Under the pieces are notes generated by a model. It was not told where the DNA came from. It did not search any database and saw nothing but the letters and a program-made list of their open reading frames with translations. Positions 4,067 through 26,907 of a stretch of DNA of 34,452 nt are shown in pieces. Every line of letters starts with the position of its first letter. The first letter of the stretch is position 1. The stretch is from Gemmatimonadota bacterium (GTDB lineage Bacteria > Gemmatimonadota > Gemmatimonadetes > Longimicrobiales > RSA9). The stretch spans positions 1 through 34,452 of the forward strand of contig SLCC01000179.1 of assembly GCA_007126035.1 (NCBI GenBank), read 5' to 3'. A program made the translations under genes and the position numbers.

Positions 4067-4296
4067 TGGGACAACACCTCGGCGAAGGTCAGTACCATGG
4101 AATGCACACCAGCCAGGCTCTCGGCCCGCTCGCGGAGCGAACGCTCCTCCGTCCGGGACCCCGTCTCCGTCACCAGAACCAGCAGATCATGGCTCGTCGA
4201 CGGCACCACCTCGCATTCCGGCATGGCGGCCAGTCGCTGGCGCACGCTCTCCTTGGCGCCCGGCTCAGAAATCACCAGATAGCTACAGATGCCCAT
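4063..4296 (-). CDS. napD: NapD, chaperone for NapA maturation
   Basis: A small 77-residue cytoplasmic protein with the ferredoxin-like fold pattern of NapD (begins MGICSYLVISEPG). NapD binds the twin-arginine signal peptide of NapA and holds it back until the molybdenum cofactor is loaded. The ATG at 4296 overlaps the upstream TAA (TAATG) and has GGAGGG about 5 nt upstream. Its TGA overlaps the napA start, so NapD and NapA are translated in coupled fashion. Length, sequence start and position immediately before a Tat-dependent napA all agree. Sequence conservation in NapD is low, so the call leans partly on context. Confidence 0.85.
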   Translation of the reverse strand: MGICSYLVISEPGAKESVRQRLAAMPECEVVPSTSHDLLVLVTETGSRTEERSLRERAESLAGVHSMVLTFAEVLSQ

Positions 4297-5204
4297 TATC
4301 CCTCCGTTCCGGGCCGCACCGGCCCAGGCTTCACATGACAGGCTACGCAGGGCCGGTCAGGTCGGTGGTCTCTTTGCTCCGTATGACAGACCAGGCATGA
4401 CGGGCGCGTGTGCACCGGCCGCTCCGTCGCCTCGCTCGAGTGGCAGCCCGAGCCCCCGCAGGTGAGATGCGCCGCCAGACCGTGGACTCCGGGCTCCGGG
4501 GCGACGTGGCAACTGGCGCACTCCGCCTCCGGTCGGTGATGCTCCACGTGGCAACTGACGCACGGCTCAGCCGCCAACCACATCCCGCCACGATGACAGT
4601 CGAGGCAACCCACCTCGCCATGTCTACCATGGTCGAAGACCAGATCCCGGACACGAGGCTCCGACCACACCGAGAGAGACAGGGGCGTCGCAATTGAGCG
4701 AGGCGCACCTAACTCCGCCGGCTCGTGGCAGGCGGTGCAGCCAGCAGGCAACGAGGCACCATGATGACAGGCCTCGCAGTCCCGGGCCGTCCACTGCCGA
4801 ACCGCACGATGCCGCTCCCCGGCACGATGACAGTCACCGCACGAGACCGCCGCGTGTTCGTCGTGACGGAACGGGCGACGGTCCGGATGGATCCGGAAGC
4901 CACCCGCCGGTGGGCGAACCTCCTGCGTAGCCAGGCCACCGCCCAGCAGCCCGGGAGTAGCCAGGGCCGGGGCCGCCAGCAACACACTCCTCTCGACCGG
5001 GTCGGCCAGCGGCGGAACCGCGGCGGACGGGGCCGTCCAGCTACGGGTCAGCTGAGAGGCAGGGATGGCCGGCGCCATAGCCAGCAATAACCCAACAACC
5101 AGGCCCACCGCCGCCCGGAACATCGCCCCGGAAACCCTTGCGCCCACCCGGGCCACGAACGGGGCTGACCGACGGCGAGTCCCGCTGCGCGAGCGTCGTC
5201 TCAT
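4296..5204 (-). CDS. multiheme c-type cytochrome, eight CxxCH plus one CX4CH
   Basis: 302 residues from the ATG at 5204, which has GGGAGA upstream; the longer open frame has no such support. An Arg-rich N-terminus and a hydrophobic segment (about 28-48) form a signal peptide or anchor. Heme motifs: CGDCH 122-126, CEACH 143-147, CTACH 156-160, CLDCH 200-204, CVSCH 215-219, CASCH 229-233, CX4CH 249-255 (CGGSGCH), CLVCH 270-274 and CVACH 286-290. Many extra histidines (for example HRAGERH, HHRPE) could be distal ligands. The layout resembles class III and related multiheme cytochromes; CX4CH sites are known in tetraheme cytochrome c3. As first gene of the nap operon it probably carries or stores electrons for NapA. 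A sensor or nitrite-related role cannot be excluded. Confidence 0.82.
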   Translation of the reverse strand: MRRRSRSGTRRRSAPFVARVGARVSGAMFRAAVGLVVGLLLAMAPAIPASQLTRSWTAPSAAVPPLADPVERSVLLAAPALATPGLLGGGLATQEVRPPAGGFRIHPDRRPFRHDEHAAVSCGDCHRAGERHRAVRQWTARDCEACHHGASLPAGCTACHEPAELGAPRSIATPLSLSVWSEPRVRDLVFDHGRHGEVGCLDCHRGGMWLAAEPCVSCHVEHHRPEAECASCHVAPEPGVHGLAAHLTCGGSGCHSSEATERPVHTRPSCLVCHTEQRDHRPDRPCVACHVKPGPVRPGTEG

Positions 5205-5546
5205 GGGAGTATCTCCCGCTATGTGAACGGCTGGCTGGTCGATTAGATAGGGCGGGTCTGCCGGACCCGTCCTGAAAATCCCTTCCACCCCCACGAGTGT
5301 TCAAGGGGAAGATCCCTGACCCGGAGTAGGGATATGCCTGATCCTGTGAATGCGGGGACCAGGCCAGGGCCGGTGGATGTGGGGCAAACCCGCACACGAC
5401 CGGCGCGGGGGCTGGAGTGCTCCACGAGAAGGTCGGGCTCCCGAGCGTTCACAGAGGCCAGGGTGGGGAACGCTCCTTGCCTCGCTTCACGTCTCGCCCG
5501 TGAGAGGGAGATAGCGGCTGGACGATTCTGGACCCGACCTGTTGCC
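5205..5546. promoter_or_regulatory. divergent intergenic region between nap operon and lipoprotein gene
   Basis: About 340 bases without a convincing gene, lying between the outward-reading nap operon (minus) and the lipoprotein gene (plus), so promoters for both should be here. Two dyads are visible. One is cgggtc/gacccg at 5253-5269, with a 5-nt loop, close to the nap start. The other is atccct/agggat at 5312-5333, with a 10-nt spacer. I could not find a convincing FNR box (TTGAT-N4-ATCAA), NarL heptamer cluster or clean sigma-70 promoter. Confidence 0.4.
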
Positions 5547-6441: not shown

Positions 6442-7266
6442 ATGATCTTCCACCTGCCGATCACGCGCCGCCCGCTTGCGATCCTGGTCCTCACGGGAGC
6501 CACGGTCTTCGGTAGCGCCTGCGCTCCGCGGATCACCACCGATCAGGAAGTCCAGATGGGGGAGGACCTGGCGGCGGAGATCAACCGGGAGCTCCCGATC
6601 GTGGACGTCCCGCCGATCCACGGCTACATCAACGATCTGGGCAGCACCATCGCCCGGACCGCCGATCCCCGGGACATCCCGTACAGCTTCTACGTGGTGA
6701 ACACCGCGGAGGTGAACGCCTTTGCCGTGCCCGGCGGTCATGTCTACCTGTTCCGCGGGCTCATCGAGCGGACGGAGAACCTGAGCGAGCTGGCTGGCGT
6801 GGTGGCCCACGAGGTAGCGCACGTGGTGGAGCGCCACGGCATCGAGCAGTGGCGCCGTGCCCAGCAGGCGCAGATGGGCCTGGCGCTGGCCAGCATCCTC
6901 CTGGGCGGCATCCCGGACCCGGCGGCCGTGGCCATCGAGCTGGGAGCCGCGGGCGTGTTCGCCGGGTACAGTCGGGACGCGGAGCGCGAGGCTGACGAGG
7001 AGGCGGTGGATTACCTGGTGGAGGTGGGAATCCATCCCGAGGGACTGGTGACGTTCTTCGAGAAGCTGCTGGAAGAGCGACGGCGTGAGCCGGGCGCTTT
7101 GGAGCAGTTCTTCGCCACGCACCCCACTACCGAGGAGCGCATGGAGAACACACGGGGCCACATCGCTGCCATACCGGCGGATCAACTCGCCGGGCTCCAG
7201 CAAGACAGCGACGCGTTCCAGCAGTTCCGGCAGCAGGTGATTCAGCTGCCGCCGCCGCCGCAGTAG
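6442..7266 (+). CDS. M48-family zinc metallopeptidase lipoprotein
   Basis: 274 residues; the ATG at 6442 has GAGG upstream. A signal peptide ends with the lipobox GSAC (Cys27), so the enzyme is probably tethered to a membrane facing the periplasm. The zinc site is HEVAH at 123-127, and EREADEEAVDYL gives the third ligand (Glu183). VNAFAVPGGHVYLFRGL (92-108) is the classic M48 substrate-strand motif, and ATHPTTEERMENT near the C-terminus is also typical. Family members such as BepA/YfgC and LoiP degrade or help assemble envelope proteins. BepA carries TPR repeats, which I do not see here, so this is closer to the short LoiP-like form. It ends convergently with the small minus-strand lipoprotein gene, sharing a hairpin terminator. 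Confidence 0.9.
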   Translation: MIFHLPITRRPLAILVLTGATVFGSACAPRITTDQEVQMGEDLAAEINRELPIVDVPPIHGYINDLGSTIARTADPRDIPYSFYVVNTAEVNAFAVPGGHVYLFRGLIERTENLSELAGVVAHEVAHVVERHGIEQWRRAQQAQMGLALASILLGGIPDPAAVAIELGAAGVFAGYSRDAEREADEEAVDYLVEVGIHPEGLVTFFEKLLEERRREPGALEQFFATHPTTEERMENTRGHIAAIPADQLAGLQQDSDAFQQFRQQVIQLPPPPQ

Positions 7267-7271
7267 ATATT

Positions 7272-7367
7272 CAGCCTGTGCGGACAGGGTAACGACTTCG
7301 GGCCGGTAGCTGCCTTTGAGACGGCCACCGGCCCGAAGTGTGTCTTCCTACCGCCAGCTACTCTTCG
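7272..7367. repeat. 96-bp direct repeat, copy 1
   Basis: This segment matches 7884-7979 at a constant offset of 612 bp, with about 7 differences in 96 positions. It includes a long inverted repeat and, on the minus strand, the final two Glu codons and TAG stop of the small lipoprotein gene. Confidence 0.9.
7296..7338. terminator. bidirectional hairpin between convergent genes
   Basis: The 12-bp perfect stem cttcgggccggt (7296-7307) / accggcccgaag (7327-7338) extends three more pairs inward with one A-C mismatch. It sits between the M48 gene (plus, ends 7266) and the small lipoprotein gene (minus, ends 7358), so it likely terminates both. No strong T tract follows on either side. Confidence 0.65.
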
Positions 7368-7801
7368 GACACCAGCTCACCGCAGGCCATTAGCACGTGC
7401 CCGTCGGCCGACAGGACCACCACGTGATACGCCTCTTCGGCGTCCAGCACATGGGCGACCGTGGCTTCCGCTGAGGCTGTACCGTTCTCATCGGTCTCCA
7501 GAGCAGGATAGTCGGCCTCATCACCGATACGGGCCTCCAGGTCGCAGGCGGCACCCTCGCCCACGTGCCACAGGAATGCCGCGTTCTCGGCGCCGTCCTC
7601 AACCTGGATGGCGGAGGTGAACCCGGTGTCGCTGGACTGAGCGCTCAGCGAGCCGGTCAGCGTCGCTCCAGCCTCCGGGACCAGAGCCGCGCTCCAGCTC
7701 AACGGTTCCGGGACCAGCGGTTCTGTGGACGAGTCGCACGCCGCTAATCCAAGGATTCCCAGCAGACATAGGGCTGGGAGGATCTTACGAGATAACAGCA
7801 T
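7358..7801 (-). CDS. small lipoprotein, possible SOD/CHRD-like beta-sandwich
   Basis: 147 residues; the ATG at 7801 has a very good ribosome site (AGGAGGAAG). A lipoprotein signal ends LAAC (Cys22), with Asp at +2. The mature part has the rhythm of the Cu/Zn-SOD-like or CHRD-like proteins common in environmental bacteria: a strand with W-H, a central Cys (GAACDLE), YPAL-x-T-D-E-N-G-T-A, then a strand pair ending VLMACGELVSEE. The two cysteines could form a disulfide. The metal-binding histidine cluster of true SODs is not visible, so an enzymatic role is unlikely. The gene is bracketed by near-identical 96-bp direct repeats. The fold assignment is tentative; the lipoprotein call is firm. Confidence 0.72.
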   Translation of the reverse strand: MLLSRKILPALCLLGILGLAACDSSTEPLVPEPLSWSAALVPEAGATLTGSLSAQSSDTGFTSAIQVEDGAENAAFLWHVGEGAACDLEARIGDEADYPALETDENGTASAEATVAHVLDAEEAYHVVVLSADGHVLMACGELVSEE

Positions 7802-7883
7802 CTTCTTCCTCCTGGTTAGTTGAAATGGGTTCGATGCGACCCAACAACGATCCAGGTGGCAGGCTTCTGCCGCAGGAGGCGTC

Positions 7884-7979
7884 CAGCCTGTAGGGACAGG
7901 GGAACGACTTCGGGCCGGTGGCTGCCTTTGAGACGGCCACCGGCCCGAAGCGTGTCTTCCTACCGTCAGCTACTCCTCG
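7884..7979. repeat. 96-bp direct repeat, copy 2
   Basis: Second copy of the element at 7272-7367. It likewise includes the last two Glu codons and the TAG stop of the minus-strand gene to its right (UPF0182). Flanking sequence outside the repeat is not similar. Confidence 0.9.
7908..7950 (-). terminator. hairpin terminator candidate downstream of the UPF0182 gene
   Basis: A perfect 15-bp stem (7908-7922 with 7936-7950) and a 13-nt loop lie about 20 nt past the UPF0182 stop. This copy pairs perfectly where copy 1 has a mismatch. No T run follows. Confidence 0.6.
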
Positions 7980-10789
7980 CCCTGGGGTGCGCCCTGGGGT
8001 GCGCCCTGGGGTGCGCCCTGGGGTGCGCCCTGGGGTGCGCCGCCCTCCAGGTTACCCAGGTCTTCGATGAGCTGTTGCAGCCTGCTCATGACATCCTGGA
8101 GGCCCTGCCTGACCGCGTCCACCGCCTCGGCCCGCACGGGGCGAGGCTCCGGCTCCAGCGCCACCGGGGGCAGCGCGGCCGGGTCGTCGACCACCGGCGC
8201 TATGGCCGGGAGCTCGCCCACCAGCGCGGCCACGGAGGCGTCCAGGGTCTGGTGCATGACTACGGTGGTGGCGTCGGCCAGGATGATCCGCCTCAGCTCG
8301 GGGAAGTCCAGCGCCTCGGGTCGGAGGAACACGGGCTCCGCGTACAGGAGCGCGTCGCCCAGCGGGATCACCAGCAGGATGCCCCGCATGACCTCTGAGC
8401 CGACCTGGCCCCAGAGGGTGAACTGCTCGGAGATGACGGCGTCGTTGTCGATGCGGGCCTCCACCTGTCGGGGTCCGTCCACGTGACGGCCCGAGGGGAA
8501 GCGGAAGAGCATCAGTTCGCCGTACTGCTCGCCGTCGCTCCGTGCGGCCATCCAGCCCACCAGGTTGTGCCGGCCATCCGGTGTGAAGGGCTGGATCAGG
8601 AGGAACTCCTCCGTATCCTCGCCCGGCAGCCGGGCCAGGATGTAGTACGGTCGCAGCGGCTGGGACCGTCCGAACGCGGTCTGCACCGGGATGGACCACT
8701 GGTCTTCCTTGTTGTAGAAGACCACCGGATCCTGCATGTGGTACTGGAGCAGCATCTGCGTCTGGATCGTGAACATGTCCATGGGGACACGAACGTGCTC
8801 GCGCAGGTACTCCGGCATCTCGGCGGCGCTGCGGAAGAGGGTGGGGAACATGCCCTGGTAGGCCTGGATCAGCGGGTCGTCCGGCTCGAAGACGTAGTAG
8901 TCAACGGTCCCGTGGTACGCGTCCACCACCGTCTTCACGCTGTTCCGGATGTAGTTGAACCGCCCGCCTGGATATGGCGTGGAGTACGGGTAGCGGTTCG
9001 TGATGGTGTACCCGTCCTGGATCCAGAAGAGCCGGCCGTCCGCCACCACCGAGTACGCCTCCCGGTCACGGAGCAGGAACGGGCTGATGGTGGCGAAGCG
9101 GTGGGGCACGGTTCGCCGGTACTGGATCACGCTCTCCGGCTCGATCTCGTTGGAGATCAGGAGGTTCAGGTCACGGAACTGCCAGGCGTACAGCAGCCGC
9201 CGGAACATGGAGCTCAGGGCGACGCCCCCGTCCCCCTGGTAACGGGTGTAGACGGGCCCGTCCGGGCCCGGATAGTTGAACTCGGGCATGCCACTGCGGG
9301 CCACCACGTAGTTCAGACTCTTCAACCCGTAGTAAACCTCCGGTCTCTCCAGGGGGACCGGTCCCAGGGGCGGCACGTCCCGGACCAAGAAGGTCGGGCG
9401 GCCGCCGGGCGCCACCTCTGTCACCGGGCTCATGGCCACGCCGTACCCGTGGGTGAACTGGAGCCGGCGGTTCACCCACCGCTGGGCCTCAGCGGGCAGC
9501 TTCTCCGCCGACAGCTCGCGGGTGGCCAGCATGACCTGGCGCAGCTCGTCACCTACGCGGTACCGGTCCGTGTGCACCGCCAGGAAGTCGTAGTAGAGCC
9601 GGAAGAACTGGATCTGGTTGTAGCTCTGAAGCAGCGGCAGCTCGTCCCATAGCCTGACGTTGCCGACCGTGCCCGGGTCTTCGGCTACCGTGCCCGCGTC
9701 CACCCGACCCAGCGCCGGATGGCTCCTGGACTGGATCCTCTCCAGGCCGAACGCCTGGCGCGTATTCTGGATGTTGTGAGCCAGGAACGGCCGCTCCCGG
9801 GCCATCTCCGCGGGCTCGACCTGGAGCCGCTGCACCAGCGCCGGGATACCCGCCAGGATCACCAGGTACAATCCAACCCAGAGGGCGACGGCGCCCAGGA
9901 TCAGCCTGTTGCCCGACAGGCGCAGGCCGCCCACCAGGATCAGCCCCGCGCTAACCAGCGCCACCACGGCCATTGCTGTCCGGCCTGGCAGGGTCGCCAG
10001 GTTGTCCGTGTACCCGATCCCGTAGACCGCCCCGGCCTGGGAGTAGAGCAGCTCGTAACGGCCCAGCCAGTGGCCCACCGCGACGAGCACGAAGATGATG
10101 GCACCCAGGATCGCGAGCTGGGACCGGGCCTGGCCCATGAACAGGCCGGCGTCGCTGCGGGTCCGGCTGGTCAGGTAGTAGAACGCCGCCACGATGACCA
10201 TGACGGTGGCCACCGCCCCGATCAACCAACCCCGGAGGAGCTCGATGGCCGGCAGCGTGAAGACGTAGAAGCCCAGGTCCCGACCGAAGATCGGGTCCAC
10301 GTCGCCGAAGGGGACCCGGTTCAGGAAGAGCAGGACCCGCTCCCATTCCGCTGCGGGGTGCGCCGCCAGCAGGAGTGCAGCCAGCCCGGCGAAGAGCATG
10401 GTGGCCCGGACCAGGAGGGTCCGCGTCAACTGGTATTCCCGCGGCCCCAGCATGGGCGCGATCAACGGTGCGCCCCCGGTGGCGCGGAACGCGTACCACA
10501 TGCTCGGAATGGCTATCAACAGGAACAGCGCCACCGCCACCACGTACAGGACCACCCGGGTAGAGACCATGGTCCACAGGACGCTCTCGTAGCCCAGGCC
10601 GCCGAACCACAGCCAGTCCGTGTAGAACGATGCCGCCCAGCCCAGCGCCATCAGTACCAGGATGACTGCCACCAGCCCGAGGCCGATTAGCATCATCCGG
10701 TTCAGGAGCTTCGGGTCCAGGTTCTGGAAGTTCAACTGTTGAAACGGGCCCTGGCCCTCAGGCTGTTCAGGTCCGCGAAAGTCCGTCAT
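7970..10789 (-). CDS. UPF0182-family large membrane protein
   Basis: 939 residues. The N-terminal third has about seven transmembrane segments (first at about residues 33-52; also LILGAVALWVGLYLVILAGI). It is followed by a large soluble domain beginning with the conserved ARERPFLAHNIQNTRQAFGL and TVGNVRLWDE-PLLQSYNQIQ signatures of UPF0182 (PF03699). These are large proteins of unknown function known from actinobacteria, cyanobacteria and others. Further family signatures are VYYGL, YTRYQGDGGV and GYTITNRYPYSTP. The C-terminus has a predicted helical stretch and five GAPQ repeats encoded by a 12-bp tandem repeat. Start ATG at 10789 has no evident ribosome site but matches the expected N-terminus. 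It appears to be a single-gene unit with hairpins on both sides. Confidence 0.88.
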   Translation of the reverse strand: MTDFRGPEQPEGQGPFQQLNFQNLDPKLLNRMMLIGLGLVAVILVLMALGWAASFYTDWLWFGGLGYESVLWTMVSTRVVLYVVAVALFLLIAIPSMWYAFRATGGAPLIAPMLGPREYQLTRTLLVRATMLFAGLAALLLAAHPAAEWERVLLFLNRVPFGDVDPIFGRDLGFYVFTLPAIELLRGWLIGAVATVMVIVAAFYYLTSRTRSDAGLFMGQARSQLAILGAIIFVLVAVGHWLGRYELLYSQAGAVYGIGYTDNLATLPGRTAMAVVALVSAGLILVGGLRLSGNRLILGAVALWVGLYLVILAGIPALVQRLQVEPAEMARERPFLAHNIQNTRQAFGLERIQSRSHPALGRVDAGTVAEDPGTVGNVRLWDELPLLQSYNQIQFFRLYYDFLAVHTDRYRVGDELRQVMLATRELSAEKLPAEAQRWVNRRLQFTHGYGVAMSPVTEVAPGGRPTFLVRDVPPLGPVPLERPEVYYGLKSLNYVVARSGMPEFNYPGPDGPVYTRYQGDGGVALSSMFRRLLYAWQFRDLNLLISNEIEPESVIQYRRTVPHRFATISPFLLRDREAYSVVADGRLFWIQDGYTITNRYPYSTPYPGGRFNYIRNSVKTVVDAYHGTVDYYVFEPDDPLIQAYQGMFPTLFRSAAEMPEYLREHVRVPMDMFTIQTQMLLQYHMQDPVVFYNKEDQWSIPVQTAFGRSQPLRPYYILARLPGEDTEEFLLIQPFTPDGRHNLVGWMAARSDGEQYGELMLFRFPSGRHVDGPRQVEARIDNDAVISEQFTLWGQVGSEVMRGILLVIPLGDALLYAEPVFLRPEALDFPELRRIILADATTVVMHQTLDASVAALVGELPAIAPVVDDPAALPPVALEPEPRPVRAEAVDAVRQGLQDVMSRLQQLIEDLGNLEGGAPQGAPQGAPQGAPQGAPQGEE
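7981..8040. repeat. 12-bp tandem repeat, five perfect copies
   Basis: cctggggtgcgc is repeated five times without a mismatch at 7981-8040, encoding the GAPQ repeat at the extreme C-terminus of the UPF0182 protein. Perfect identity suggests recent expansion; the unit keeps the frame. Confidence 0.95.
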
Positions 10790-11022: not shown

Positions 11023-11784
11023 TCAGGACGCCGCCGTGGCCAGGGATCCGAACCCGCCCCGGAACAGCTCCCGGTTCAGCCGAGCGATGTGGCCTATGTC
11101 GATCCCCTTGGGGCACTCGGCTTCACAGGCGGCCGTGTTGCTACAGGCGCCGAACCCCAGCTCGTCCGCCTTGGCCATCATGGCCCAGGCCCGCCGCTTC
11201 GCCTCGGGCTGTCCCTGGGGGAGCAGAGCCAGTTGCGACACCTTCGCCGCCACGAACAACATCACCGAGCCGTTCGGGCAGGCCGCTGTACACGAGCCGC
11301 AGCCGATGCAGACCGCCGCGTCGAACGCCTCGTCCGACCGCTCCTTCGAGATGGGGATCGAGTTGGCCTCCGGCGCCGCGCCCGTGTTGGCCGAGATGAA
11401 GCCGCCGGCCTGAAGGATCTGGTCCAGCGCCGTACGGTCCACCATCAGGTCACGGATCACCGGGAAAGCCTTCGAGCGCCACGGCTCGATCACTATGGTG
11501 TCCCCGTCCGCGAACTTCGTCATCCGCAGCTCGCAGGTGGTAGTCTCCTTGCCCGGGCCATGGGGCCGGCCATTGATGTAGAGCGAGCAGCAGCCGCATA
11601 TGCCTTCACGACAGTCGTGCTCGAAGACCACCGGCTCCTCGCCCCGCTCGATGAGCGTTGTGTTCAGGTAGTCGAGCATCTCCAGGAACGACATCTCCCG
11701 GGACACGTCATCGAGAACGTGCGTCACGAAGCCGCCCTTGTGGGTAGCCGTCTCCTGGCGCCAGATCTTCAGTTGGATCCTCAT
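11023..11784 (-). CDS. sdhB: succinate dehydrogenase/fumarate reductase iron-sulfur subunit
   Basis: 253 residues; carries electrons from the flavin of SdhA to the membrane quinone site. The [2Fe-2S] ligands are Cys58, 63, 66 and 84 (DCREGICGCCSLYINGR ... TTTC). The C-terminal ferredoxin domain has the [4Fe-4S] motif CIGCGSCTAACP and the [3Fe-4S] motif beginning CSNTAACEAECPKGID. The ATG at 11784 follows the sdhA TAA after one base. Length and motif spacing match the type-B enzymes (SdhCAB with a single membrane subunit). Whether the complex runs as succinate dehydrogenase or fumarate reductase cannot be told from the sequence; in an organism with beta-oxidation and nitrate respiration the oxidative direction is more likely. 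Confidence 0.94.
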   Translation of the reverse strand: MRIQLKIWRQETATHKGGFVTHVLDDVSREMSFLEMLDYLNTTLIERGEEPVVFEHDCREGICGCCSLYINGRPHGPGKETTTCELRMTKFADGDTIVIEPWRSKAFPVIRDLMVDRTALDQILQAGGFISANTGAAPEANSIPISKERSDEAFDAAVCIGCGSCTAACPNGSVMLFVAAKVSQLALLPQGQPEAKRRAWAMMAKADELGFGACSNTAACEAECPKGIDIGHIARLNRELFRGGFGSLATAAS

Positions 11785-14572: not shown

Positions 14573-16885
14573 CTACCCCCCCGGCTCCTCATCGGTCTTC
14601 AGGTACCGGTCGTACCAGGCCAGGATGCGCTCGTGGTAGTCGATGGCCTCTTCCACGGTGGACCGGGGCATGCCGTGGCCGCCGTCGATGTAGCTGACCC
14701 ACTCCACGTCCCGGCCCAGACGGCGCAGGGCGTAATACATCTCGGAGGTGGTGCGCTCGGTCACGTTGTGGTCCTGCTGGCCGGTCATGAGCAGCAGCGG
14801 AGTGCGGATCCGGTCCGCCATCATGACGGCCGAATGGGCCAGGTACTTGTGGGGCTGCTCCCAGAGAGTGCCGCCGATCCGGTCCTGGCTCCGTTCCGGC
14901 GCGTGGATGTTCCTGGTCCCGAGCCGGGGCGAGTCGGTGTAGAAGCTCACCATGTTGGTCTTGCCGGAGATATTGATGGCGGCCTTGAACCTGGATGTTT
15001 GGGCGATGAGGAGGTTGGTGGCGTAGCCGCCGTAGCTGGTGCCGTGGACGCCCAGCCGGTCCGGATCGGCCACGCCCATCGCGATGATCCTGTTCGCCGC
15101 CGCGGTCACGCCCTTGAGCCAGCCTTCTCCCGGGTAGCCTCGCTCCAGGTGCACCGACGGCTGCATGACCGCGTACCCGTTGGCGTTCAGCAGGGCCACG
15201 GTGCTGTTGAAGCGTTCATCGAAGTATGACTCGTAGACGATGAAGACGGTGGGATAGCGCTGGCCTGGCTGGTAATCAGCGGGGTAATGCAGCACGCCGT
15301 AGAGCTTGCGTCCGTCCGCGTCCAGGTAATCTATCAGCTCCACGTCCCCCAGGCGGCGCTCCGCCAGCCACGGGTTCGTGTCCGTGAGGCGACGCATGTT
15401 CGACAGGTCCGGGTCCGCGGTATGGATGTCCGCGGGCCGGGCGCCGTCGGCCACGTTCAGGAGCATGGTCTCACCGTCGCCCGAGAGCCGCAGCCCCGAG
15501 AGCTGGCGGGTCCCGCGGGTGAGCTCGGTGAGCTGGCCGGTGGGCCGGTCGTAGCGATAGACGCCCCGGTCCCACTCGGTACGGGACGCGTAGGTCAGGT
15601 AGATGCGCTGCCCGTCCCTGCTCCATTCGGCCACCGCCCAGCGGGGCGCCTCGTCGTCGTCGGGGTCCTGCTCCACGATCTGCTCCCGCTCTCCCGTGGC
15701 CGTGTCGAAGAGCCAGAGCCCACGCCGGTTCGACGCCACCAGGAGCGATCCGTCGTGGCTGAGCCGGACGGGGGAGAAGCGCTCCTCGCGTCGGTTCCTG
15801 TCATCAGCCGCGCCTTCCTCACCCTCGGCGGCGACGGTGTCCGGGCTCGCCGGCTCCGGCTCCGCCAGCGTCCGCGGCTCGTCCAGCTCCAGGTCGCCGA
15901 ACAGCAGCTTGCCGTCCCTGGCGAAGGCCCAGGCCCGGCCGTCGCCCGACCAGCGCAAGGTCAGGCCACGGTCCGAGTCGAGGATGACCCGCTCGTCGCC
16001 CGTGTCCAGCCGCACGGCCCGGATCCGGTTCTCGCGCCCGAAGATCTGCTCGTAGCTGGTCCCTTCGGTGATGTCGTCGTGGAGCCGGAGCCACGCGCCG
16101 TCGTCGGTTACGGCCCAGCCGCCCAACATGGACTCCGGCGCCAGCTCCTCGACTCGTCCGGACCGGACCTGGTAGACGGCCACGCCCTGTCGCAGCCCCA
16201 GGCGCCGAACCTCGTCCCACGACAGGAACGGCTCGTCACTCGAACGGACGACGATGGGGCCGTGGACCTCGTGCCGGAACCGCTCCGCCGCCTCCTGGCG
16301 CCATGACTGGGTGCGCGTGGCGAAGAACAGGCGTGACCCGTCGTCGGACCAGCGGAGCGCCGTGTTGTCGGCCAGGATCCGGCCCCGGGGCAGGCTGACC
16401 ATGCGCAGGCGTGACCGGGCACGCTCCCAGAGGGCGAGGCGGAAGTCGTCGCCCTCCCGGACCACCAGCGCCAGCAGCGCCGCGTCCGGTGACCATGCCG
16501 CACCCCGGATCTGCCGCTTCACGGGGAACAGCGGCGTCTCCTGGCCGGTCCGGGTGTCCATTACCCGCACCTCGGACAGTACGGGGGCCACGTACGTCGG
16601 GTCGCCGAAGCGGTGGTTGTCGATCCCGATCCGGTCCCGCTGCGACGTGTAGCTGATCACCGCCCACTGGCCGTCGGCGCTCAGGTCATGGACGCTGGTG
16701 CCTCGGACCTCCAGCACATCGGCAATGGAGAAGTCCGCTGCCGCGGCGCCGGCTGGCGACCGGGATTCCGCTGCCGCCGAAGCGGCAGGCGCCATCTGGG
16801 TGGCGACAGGGACGGGCGCCGCCACGAGCCAGGCGGCCACGACGAGCAGCGATACGACATGGCGGTACGGCCAGCGAGCAGACAT
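14573..16885 (-). CDS. secreted S9-family (prolyl oligopeptidase-like) serine peptidase
   Basis: 770 residues. The ATG at 16885 has an excellent ribosome site (GAGGAGGTGA), so the much longer open frame that continues upstream through the next gene is not the protein. A signal peptide covers about residues 1-30. The N-terminal two thirds carry beta-propeller blades with LSADGQW, WSPDAALLAL, WSDDGSRLFF and LSHDGSLLVA signatures. The C-terminal alpha/beta hydrolase has the triad Ser617 (GTSYGG), Asp705 (TGQQDHN) and His737 (DGGHGMP). Such enzymes cleave short peptides, often after proline or as acylaminoacyl peptidases, in the periplasm. It lies in a run with an amidohydrolase and a second S9 enzyme, suggesting a peptide-scavenging locus. 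Specificity cannot be read from sequence. Confidence 0.92.
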   Translation of the reverse strand: MSARWPYRHVVSLLVVAAWLVAAPVPVATQMAPAASAAAESRSPAGAAAADFSIADVLEVRGTSVHDLSADGQWAVISYTSQRDRIGIDNHRFGDPTYVAPVLSEVRVMDTRTGQETPLFPVKRQIRGAAWSPDAALLALVVREGDDFRLALWERARSRLRMVSLPRGRILADNTALRWSDDGSRLFFATRTQSWRQEAAERFRHEVHGPIVVRSSDEPFLSWDEVRRLGLRQGVAVYQVRSGRVEELAPESMLGGWAVTDDGAWLRLHDDITEGTSYEQIFGRENRIRAVRLDTGDERVILDSDRGLTLRWSGDGRAWAFARDGKLLFGDLELDEPRTLAEPEPASPDTVAAEGEEGAADDRNRREERFSPVRLSHDGSLLVASNRRGLWLFDTATGEREQIVEQDPDDDEAPRWAVAEWSRDGQRIYLTYASRTEWDRGVYRYDRPTGQLTELTRGTRQLSGLRLSGDGETMLLNVADGARPADIHTADPDLSNMRRLTDTNPWLAERRLGDVELIDYLDADGRKLYGVLHYPADYQPGQRYPTVFIVYESYFDERFNSTVALLNANGYAVMQPSVHLERGYPGEGWLKGVTAAANRIIAMGVADPDRLGVHGTSYGGYATNLLIAQTSRFKAAINISGKTNMVSFYTDSPRLGTRNIHAPERSQDRIGGTLWEQPHKYLAHSAVMMADRIRTPLLLMTGQQDHNVTERTTSEMYYALRRLGRDVEWVSYIDGGHGMPRSTVEEAIDYHERILAWYDRYLKTDEEPGG

Positions 16886-24777: not shown

Positions 24778-26907
24778 TCATGTCTGGGGCTGCTCCAACT
24801 GTCCATCGATCAGCTCCACCAGGTCGGGAGCTTCCACCTCTCGCTCCAACTGCCCATCGATCAGCTCCACCAGGTCGAGGGCTTCCATCTCTCCCTCCAG
24901 GCCGGCCACCTTGATGGCGTCCTCGATGTTCGTGAGACAGTACGGGCAGGCGGTGACGATCACGTCGGCGCCTGCCTCCCGGGCCTGCTGGACCCTGACC
25001 ACGCCCATCCGCTGCTCCTCCTCGGGCTCGTAGAAGAGCATCAGTCCGCCACCGCCGCAGCAGAAGGCCCGGTCGCGGCAGTTGCCCTCCATCTCGACGC
25101 GCCTCAGGCCGGGGATCCCGTCCAGCGCCCGTCGCGGGGCCTCGTAGCTGCCGTTGTGGCGGCCGAGATAGCAGGGATCGTGGTACGTGTAGGCCTTCGA
25201 CGGGTCCGTCATCGGCTTCAGCGTCAGCTCGCCGCATGCCACCGCGTCCGCGATCAGCTCGCTGACGTGGTGGACCGGAGGGATGTGGTCGTAGTCGTGG
25301 CGCAGCGTGTTCAGCGTGTGCGGGTCGCTCACCACGATCCTCTGCGCCTCCGCCGCCCTGATCGACTCGGTGTTCTCTTCCTTCAGGACCTGGAAGAGCA
25401 TCTCCTCGCCGAAGCGCCGGACGTCGTTGCCACTGTCCTTCTCGGCCGTGCCGATCACCACGAAGTCCACGTCCGCCCGCGCCAGAATGCGCGCGGTGGC
25501 CCGGGCGATATTCTGCATCCGGTCATCGTAGGCGGTGATGCTGTCGACGAAGTACAGCGTCCCGGCCGTCTCCCCGTTCTCCACGAGCTTGACGGGCGTC
25601 CCACTGCCGTTCCCGGTGGCCCACTCCGCGCGCTTCTTCTCGAGCTTGCCCCACGGGTTGCCCCGTTTCTCCAGGGATGCCAGCGGCTTCTGGAGTGACT
25701 GGGGCACGTTGCCGTCGTCCACCATCCCGCGGCGCAGGTCCACGATCTTGTCGATGTACTCGATCCCCAGCGGGCATTCCTCCTCGCATGCGCCGCAGGT
25801 CGTACAGGACCAGATCTCGTCCTCGCCGTAGATCCCGCCCATCAGGGGCGACGGCTCCGCCGCGGACCGGCGGAAGGCCGGGTAGTGCTCGAACGCGTAG
25901 TCGCGCGCCTTGATGCTGACGAACCGGGGCGACAGCGGGCGGCCCACCCGGTTGGCGGGGCAGCGGTCCGAGCAGCGGCCACAGTCCACACAGCTGTAGA
26001 AGTCCAGCATGTGCTTCCACGTGAAGTCCTCGAACGTCTTCACGCCGAAGGATTCCAGATGGTCGAGGTCCGCATCGGGCACGCCGTGCAGCACCGGCTT
26101 GACGGTGCCCGTCTCCAGCCGCATGAAGAACACGCTGAACAGGGAGGTGACCACGTGGAAGTGCTTCCCGAATGGGAGCAGACAGAGGAACGCGAAGAAG
26201 GTCACGTCGTGAACGGCGTACGCCGCCAGGTTGACTGAGGCCAGGGCCGGCACCTCCGTTCCGGACAGCAGCCGCTCGAAGGCCCACGTCAGCGTCAGCG
26301 CCGTGGCATGTCCGGACCCCGCCCCGGCGGCGAACAGGCTCGCCTCGAAGATGCTCTCGGAGACCATCAGGGTCCCGATCAGGCCCAGGACGAGCAGCGC
26401 CTCCGGGGTGTGGTCCTTTCCCAGCTTCTCGGGGACGGCGTAGCGGGCCGGCCGGAACAAGCCCCGGCGCACCGCCAGGATCACCACCGCCACGAACACG
26501 GCCGTCGCCGCATAGTCCTTCACCACGTGGTAGGCGGCGCCGAGGCCTCCGCCGAGCCCCGGCATCTCGAATCCCTCGAAGATCCCCAGGAGCACGAGCT
26601 CCGTCGCCCGGATCGCCAGGACCAGGAACCCGAAGAACACGACTATGTGCAGCACCCCCGCGAGCATGTAGCGAGGCTGCCGCCACTGGGCGAGCCAGTA
26701 CTTCAGGACCATCACGAGCCGCTCGGGGATCCGGCTCAGGCGAGGATCCGGTCGCGCCCGGCGCAAAGGCTCCAGGCGCCGCCAGATCACCCACGCGAAC
26801 ACACCGACCCCCACGAGCGTGACCAGCAGGAACAGCAGGTCCGCCGGGATGCCGGCTATCGTCGCGGACGCCGGAGAGAACGGCCGCTGGACCATGGCGT
26901 CGTCCAT
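24778..26907 (-). CDS. membrane-bound Fe-S ETF:quinone oxidoreductase (EMO/DUF224 type)
   Basis: 709 residues; the ATG at 26907 has AGGGAG upstream. The N-terminal half has about six transmembrane segments with histidines (His87, 127, 233, 251) suited to b-heme binding, as in NarI-like domains. Two 4Fe-4S motifs follow: Cys306/309/312/316 and Cys368/371/374/378. The C-terminal half is HdrB/GlpC-like. Its second CCG motif is intact (DPCY, CCGGGG 616-621, ACPYC 653-657). The first is degenerate: DSITAYD and EKDSGND stand where cysteines are expected. It should move electrons from EtfAB to membrane quinone, replacing the flavoprotein EtfQO. A 17-residue duplication ends the protein. Neighbours on both sides are beta-oxidation and ETF genes. 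Confidence 0.88.
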   Translation of the reverse strand: MDDAMVQRPFSPASATIAGIPADLLFLLVTLVGVGVFAWVIWRRLEPLRRARPDPRLSRIPERLVMVLKYWLAQWRQPRYMLAGVLHIVVFFGFLVLAIRATELVLLGIFEGFEMPGLGGGLGAAYHVVKDYAATAVFVAVVILAVRRGLFRPARYAVPEKLGKDHTPEALLVLGLIGTLMVSESIFEASLFAAGAGSGHATALTLTWAFERLLSGTEVPALASVNLAAYAVHDVTFFAFLCLLPFGKHFHVVTSLFSVFFMRLETGTVKPVLHGVPDADLDHLESFGVKTFEDFTWKHMLDFYSCVDCGRCSDRCPANRVGRPLSPRFVSIKARDYAFEHYPAFRRSAAEPSPLMGGIYGEDEIWSCTTCGACEEECPLGIEYIDKIVDLRRGMVDDGNVPQSLQKPLASLEKRGNPWGKLEKKRAEWATGNGSGTPVKLVENGETAGTLYFVDSITAYDDRMQNIARATARILARADVDFVVIGTAEKDSGNDVRRFGEEMLFQVLKEENTESIRAAEAQRIVVSDPHTLNTLRHDYDHIPPVHHVSELIADAVACGELTLKPMTDPSKAYTYHDPCYLGRHNGSYEAPRRALDGIPGLRRVEMEGNCRDRAFCCGGGGLMLFYEPEEEQRMGVVRVQQAREAGADVIVTACPYCLTNIEDAIKVAGLEGEMEALDLVELIDGQLEREVEAPDLVELIDGQLEQPQT
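24792..24893. repeat. 51-bp tandem duplication in the Fe-S oxidoreductase gene
   Basis: Units 24792-24842 and 24843-24893 differ at about four positions. Each encodes a 17-residue segment containing DLVELIDGQLE, placed just before the stop. The duplication keeps the frame. Confidence 0.92.

Follow-up and report, generated by a model that had tools for sequence, protein, structure and literature searches.

Hairpins that resemble intrinsic terminators often lack the poly-U trail, some 90% of them in M. tuberculosis, and a survey states that several bacteria commonly have hairpins without this trail at the ends of genes (PMC8355165). The locus described here lies in a window of 34,452 nucleotides (the whole stretch of DNA that was analysed) from a Gemmatimonadota bacterium, and it resembles the I-shaped terminator-like hairpins without a U-tract that are found between convergent genes in having a GC-rich stem right after the stops, which serves both strands and is followed by no T-run. 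Unlike those hairpins, a single hairpin occurs here twice, ending two adjacent genes. The locus also resembles the short local segmental (tandem) duplications known from bacterial genomes in its direct orientation, short distance, two copies and divergence by point changes, but a whole gene lies between the copies, so that a second step is needed, in which either the duplicated body of the lipoprotein gene would have been lost or the template would have been switched. A third likeness is to transposed Arabidopsis genes, for which it has been proposed that a circular product was inserted and left genic repeats on either side (PMC2869330). In both cases direct repeats that derive from local genic sequence flank a gene; the differences are that the kingdom is another one, that the repeat here seems native to the bracketed gene, and that an orthologous empty site is not visible here. 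The features of the locus are as follows.

6442-7266, plus strand: M48 family peptidase lipoprotein gene (PF01435, E 1.7e-28), convergent with the small lipoprotein gene; the second M48 copy of the genome
7257-7367 (core 7272-7367): repeat copy A, with the M48 end, the convergent intergenic hairpin and the final 10 coding nt of the lipoprotein gene; matches copy B at 89% identity across 111 nt
7296-7339: hairpin of copy A, near-perfect, whose minus-strand stem has 18 pairs; folding z -7.9 (minus) and -5.2 (plus)
7358-7801, minus strand: small lipoprotein gene, 147 aa, lipobox LAAC, remote CHRD-like family
7869-7979 (core 7884-7979): repeat copy B, with the hairpin and the last 10 coding nt of the UPF0182 gene, placed between the start of the lipoprotein gene and the end of UPF0182
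7908-7950: hairpin of copy B, near-perfect; folding z -5.6 (minus) and -4.6 (plus)
7970-10789, minus strand: UPF0182 membrane protein gene, 939 aa (Pfam PF03699, E 1e-264)
7978-8041, minus strand: exact 12-bp tandem array of 5.3 copies, encoding the GAPQ tail of UPF0182 and abutting copy B

The core of copy A is identical to that of copy B at 89 of 96 positions (92.7%), in direct orientation, with a constant offset of 612 and no indels, in agreement with the direct repeats of about 93% identity reported by the first-pass annotation. Weaker similarity stretches the pair leftward to 7257 and 7869 (111 bp, BLAST E 1.1e-33). The two copies differ at 12 of these 111 sites, the longest identical run is 30 nt, and the stem-loop is the best-conserved part, with one difference. 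The final 10 coding nt in each copy (C, two Glu codons and TAG) belong to the lipoprotein gene in copy A and to UPF0182 in copy B, both on the minus strand; at its left edge, copy A also overlaps the final codons of the M48 peptidase gene, the third gene involved. The long hairpin and the Glu-Glu-stop gene ends that had been noticed in both copies were thus borne out by the folding z-scores and the gene coordinates. Elsewhere in the window, a minus-strand ORF at 4296-5294 has a class III cytochrome c match with several CxxCH-type motifs.

The assembly that holds the window is a 3.88-Mb draft of 218 contigs, 98% complete, with an estimated contamination of 4.24%, and these properties leave room for an assembly artefact as the origin of the second copy. 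We consider this very improbable, since a longest identical run of 30 nt with differences at 12 of 111 sites is short for an assembler to confuse, and the composition of the window matches the rest of the genome. Second copies of three genes were found elsewhere in the assembly at 36-61% identity: M48 (6442-7266; contig C134), UPF0182 (7970-10789; C102) and the succinate dehydrogenase/fumarate reductase iron-sulphur subunit (sdhB, 11023-11784; C5). A contaminant contig was nevertheless rejected, because both GC content and tetranucleotide pattern match the genome. The tetranucleotide correlation of the window with the rest of the genome was 0.90-0.91, within the genome's own range of 0.82-0.95; relatives from the family gave 0.60-0.79. 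It follows from this match that the search for further repeat copies was made in the right genome.

That search, made over the whole assembly, returned exactly two copies of the repeat, and the remaining matches were those of the palindrome to its own reverse, or short pieces (14-31 nt) that match by chance. No copy was found in 60 relatives or in 295 genomes of the same class; three of the genomes searched yielded only pieces of the hairpin region, 23-49 nt long. A palindromic core in intergenic space is what would be expected if the 111-bp unit were a small mobile or dispersed element of MITE or REP type with many copies, but with two copies in the assembly and none in relatives such an element is rejected as highly improbable. 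The first-pass annotation had called for a search of the genome and its relatives and had named an ordinary dispersed repeat as the result that would count against its reading; with two copies only, this is excluded. Two copies in the same orientation, a short distance apart and with none elsewhere, fit a local segmental duplication. Further local duplications of short segments were present in a 570-kb sample of the genome, which served as the background for repeats and hairpins, among them a 56-nt hairpin-bearing unit on contig C185, duplicated at an offset of 104 (L154:14705-14760 and 14809-14864). Within the window, a 51-bp tandem unit is present at 24792-24899 in two copies that are 91% identical.

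The same 570-kb sample contained 16 near-perfect stems of at least 12 pairs, 14 of them outside predicted genes. The other strong hairpins that lie outside predicted genes, about a dozen, had unrelated stems, usually with no T-run, and a gene-end hairpin of this type is therefore ordinary in this genome. Judged by sequence comparison, copies A and B share descent, because they have the same stem, loop and flanks while the other hairpins of the genome have unrelated stems. An alternative is that the two gene-end hairpins were acquired separately and then made alike by gene conversion, and the best conservation being in the hairpin region, with one difference within the stem-loop, would fit such a history. 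We regard it as quite unlikely: the identity spans both flanks into the coding ends, which conversion of unrelated hairpins would not create, and the other hairpins of the genome are unrelated.

As in an intrinsic terminator, a stable GC-rich hairpin follows both minus-strand genes, with an 18-pair stem beginning 19 nt past the stop. The one A.C mismatch of the copy A stem on the plus strand becomes a G-U pair on the minus strand. A T-run after the stem is absent at both hairpins (tails CGTTACCC and CGTTCCCC; plus strand GTGTCTT), and neither hairpin was called by an intrinsic-terminator scan. The earlier description of these structures as terminators thus holds for a strong gene-end hairpin (z -4.6 to -7.9), but not for a T-run or a terminator call. 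A known structured RNA was also rejected, as the whole window had no Rfam match at gathering score. We infer that the hairpin of copy A is probably a terminator or a 3'-end stabiliser without a U-tract. Its likely role would be to end or protect transcripts, those of the M48 and lipoprotein genes at copy A and that of UPF0182 at copy B, where the hairpin would likely keep read-through of the long UPF0182 message out of the lipoprotein gene.

The gene-end comparisons bear on which gene owned the hairpin. The lipoprotein family has two further members in this genome, scattered on contigs C14 and C187; its CHRD match is weak and was seen in one member. Lipoprotein homologues stop at the same point, at ACGEL plus 0-4 residues, and a stem of at least 11 pairs soon follows the stop in 8 of the 15 homologues examined, including the C187 paralogue. 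The small lipoprotein gene thus looks like the native owner of both the hairpin and the gene end. For UPF0182, the C-terminal tail (APQG)x5-EE is foreign, being present in no orthologue: the Gemmatimonadota orthologues (n=5, three of them near-identical; 63-64% identical to the protein of the window) end earlier, with LEGGGG or LERGSG before the stop, and the stems after these stops have at most 8 pairs and a z near 0. The UPF0182 of the window continues through five perfect GAPQ units into the EE-stop of the repeat, and on this comparison the hairpin and gene end look foreign to it. The perfect 12-bp units suggest a recent expansion, with length variation between strains being likely, and the array alone could have altered the UPF0182 end. 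The UPF0182 type found here is common to Desulfobacterota and some Gemmatimonadota and differs from the family's own, a distribution that suggests horizontal transfer of the gene.

Because both hairpin and gene end appear to belong to the lipoprotein gene and to be foreign to UPF0182, the hairpin probably moved to UPF0182, rather than the lipoprotein gene to the hairpin. The opposite course would make the lipoprotein gene the newcomer: a circle or fragment bearing this gene and a hairpin would have recombined into an M48-hairpin-UPF0182 junction, in the manner of a single crossover, leaving a hairpin on both sides. Insertion of a cassette in this way agrees with a gene flanked by direct repeats, whose deletion restores a clean two-gene junction, with the scattered members of the lipoprotein family, and with the comparable route proposed for Arabidopsis (PMC2869330). 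It also requires that UPF0182 owned the hairpin and EE-stop beforehand, although its orthologues are without both, and that the incoming DNA already bore a homologous hairpin, of which no third copy exists. We therefore hold it to be possible but rather unlikely. Of the proposal in the first-pass annotation that a cassette was inserted or duplicated at a terminator, the duplication at a gene-end hairpin, giving two unrelated genes the same 3' end, is retained; the inserted cassette is less supported.

The history we favour, as the probable one, is a single illegitimate local duplication of the convergent gene-end segment from copy A to the UPF0182 3' end. Copy A would have begun as an ordinary gene-end hairpin between the convergent M48 and small lipoprotein genes. 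A segment of about 96-111 bp, from about the M48 end through the hairpin to the last two lipoprotein codons, would have been duplicated once, in direct orientation, and would have landed next to the fresh 12-bp array. The copy would thereby have supplied UPF0182 with its final codons, stop and hairpin, and UPF0182 transcription would have been split from the downstream lipoprotein gene. Two mechanisms may be inferred. In one, hairpin and lipoprotein gene would have been duplicated in tandem, and the body of the second lipoprotein gene would then have been lost; in the other, the template would have been switched at the hairpin. The assignment of copy A as source and copy B as derived is favoured by the gene-end comparisons and by a left-edge trace, none of them decisive: the left 15 nt of the similarity would be traces of the M48 end in copy B, a weak similarity with a chance probability of ~0.004-0.01. 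The M48 end is itself shorter than in paralogues (LPPPPQ versus LPPPPAEFQR before the stop), and more than one rearrangement may therefore lie here. The M48, UPF0182 and lipoprotein genes were adjacent in no fetched relative, the nearest relatives being of the same family only, and an equivalent junction was found neither in the family and class genomes nor at 80 UPF0182 loci of the genome_contigs collection.

Recombination between the copies in silico removed 612 bp, and the joined sequence kept M48 and the full 939-aa UPF0182, so that the clean deletion of the lipoprotein gene foreseen in the first-pass annotation is right at this level. In E. coli, about 30 nt of identity is close to the least that RecA-dependent exchange needs. 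The longest identity between the copies lies near this limit, and such deletions should therefore be rare.

Taken as a whole, the locus looks like a real, unusual-looking yet ordinary one-off local rearrangement, and not a mobile cassette. In the literature searched, no bacterial case of a gene-end hairpin duplicated in this way is described. A broader reading, which we consider unlikely, is that the hairpins at gene ends serve this lineage as portable homology, with local copying that includes the last codons giving unrelated genes the same 3' end, as well as direct repeats for later loss or exchange of small genes. The locus shows no new system; it leads to the prediction of a 612-bp deletion and is at most a clean small example of how the last codons, stop and hairpin of a gene can be replaced in a single event, through copying of a neighbour's end.
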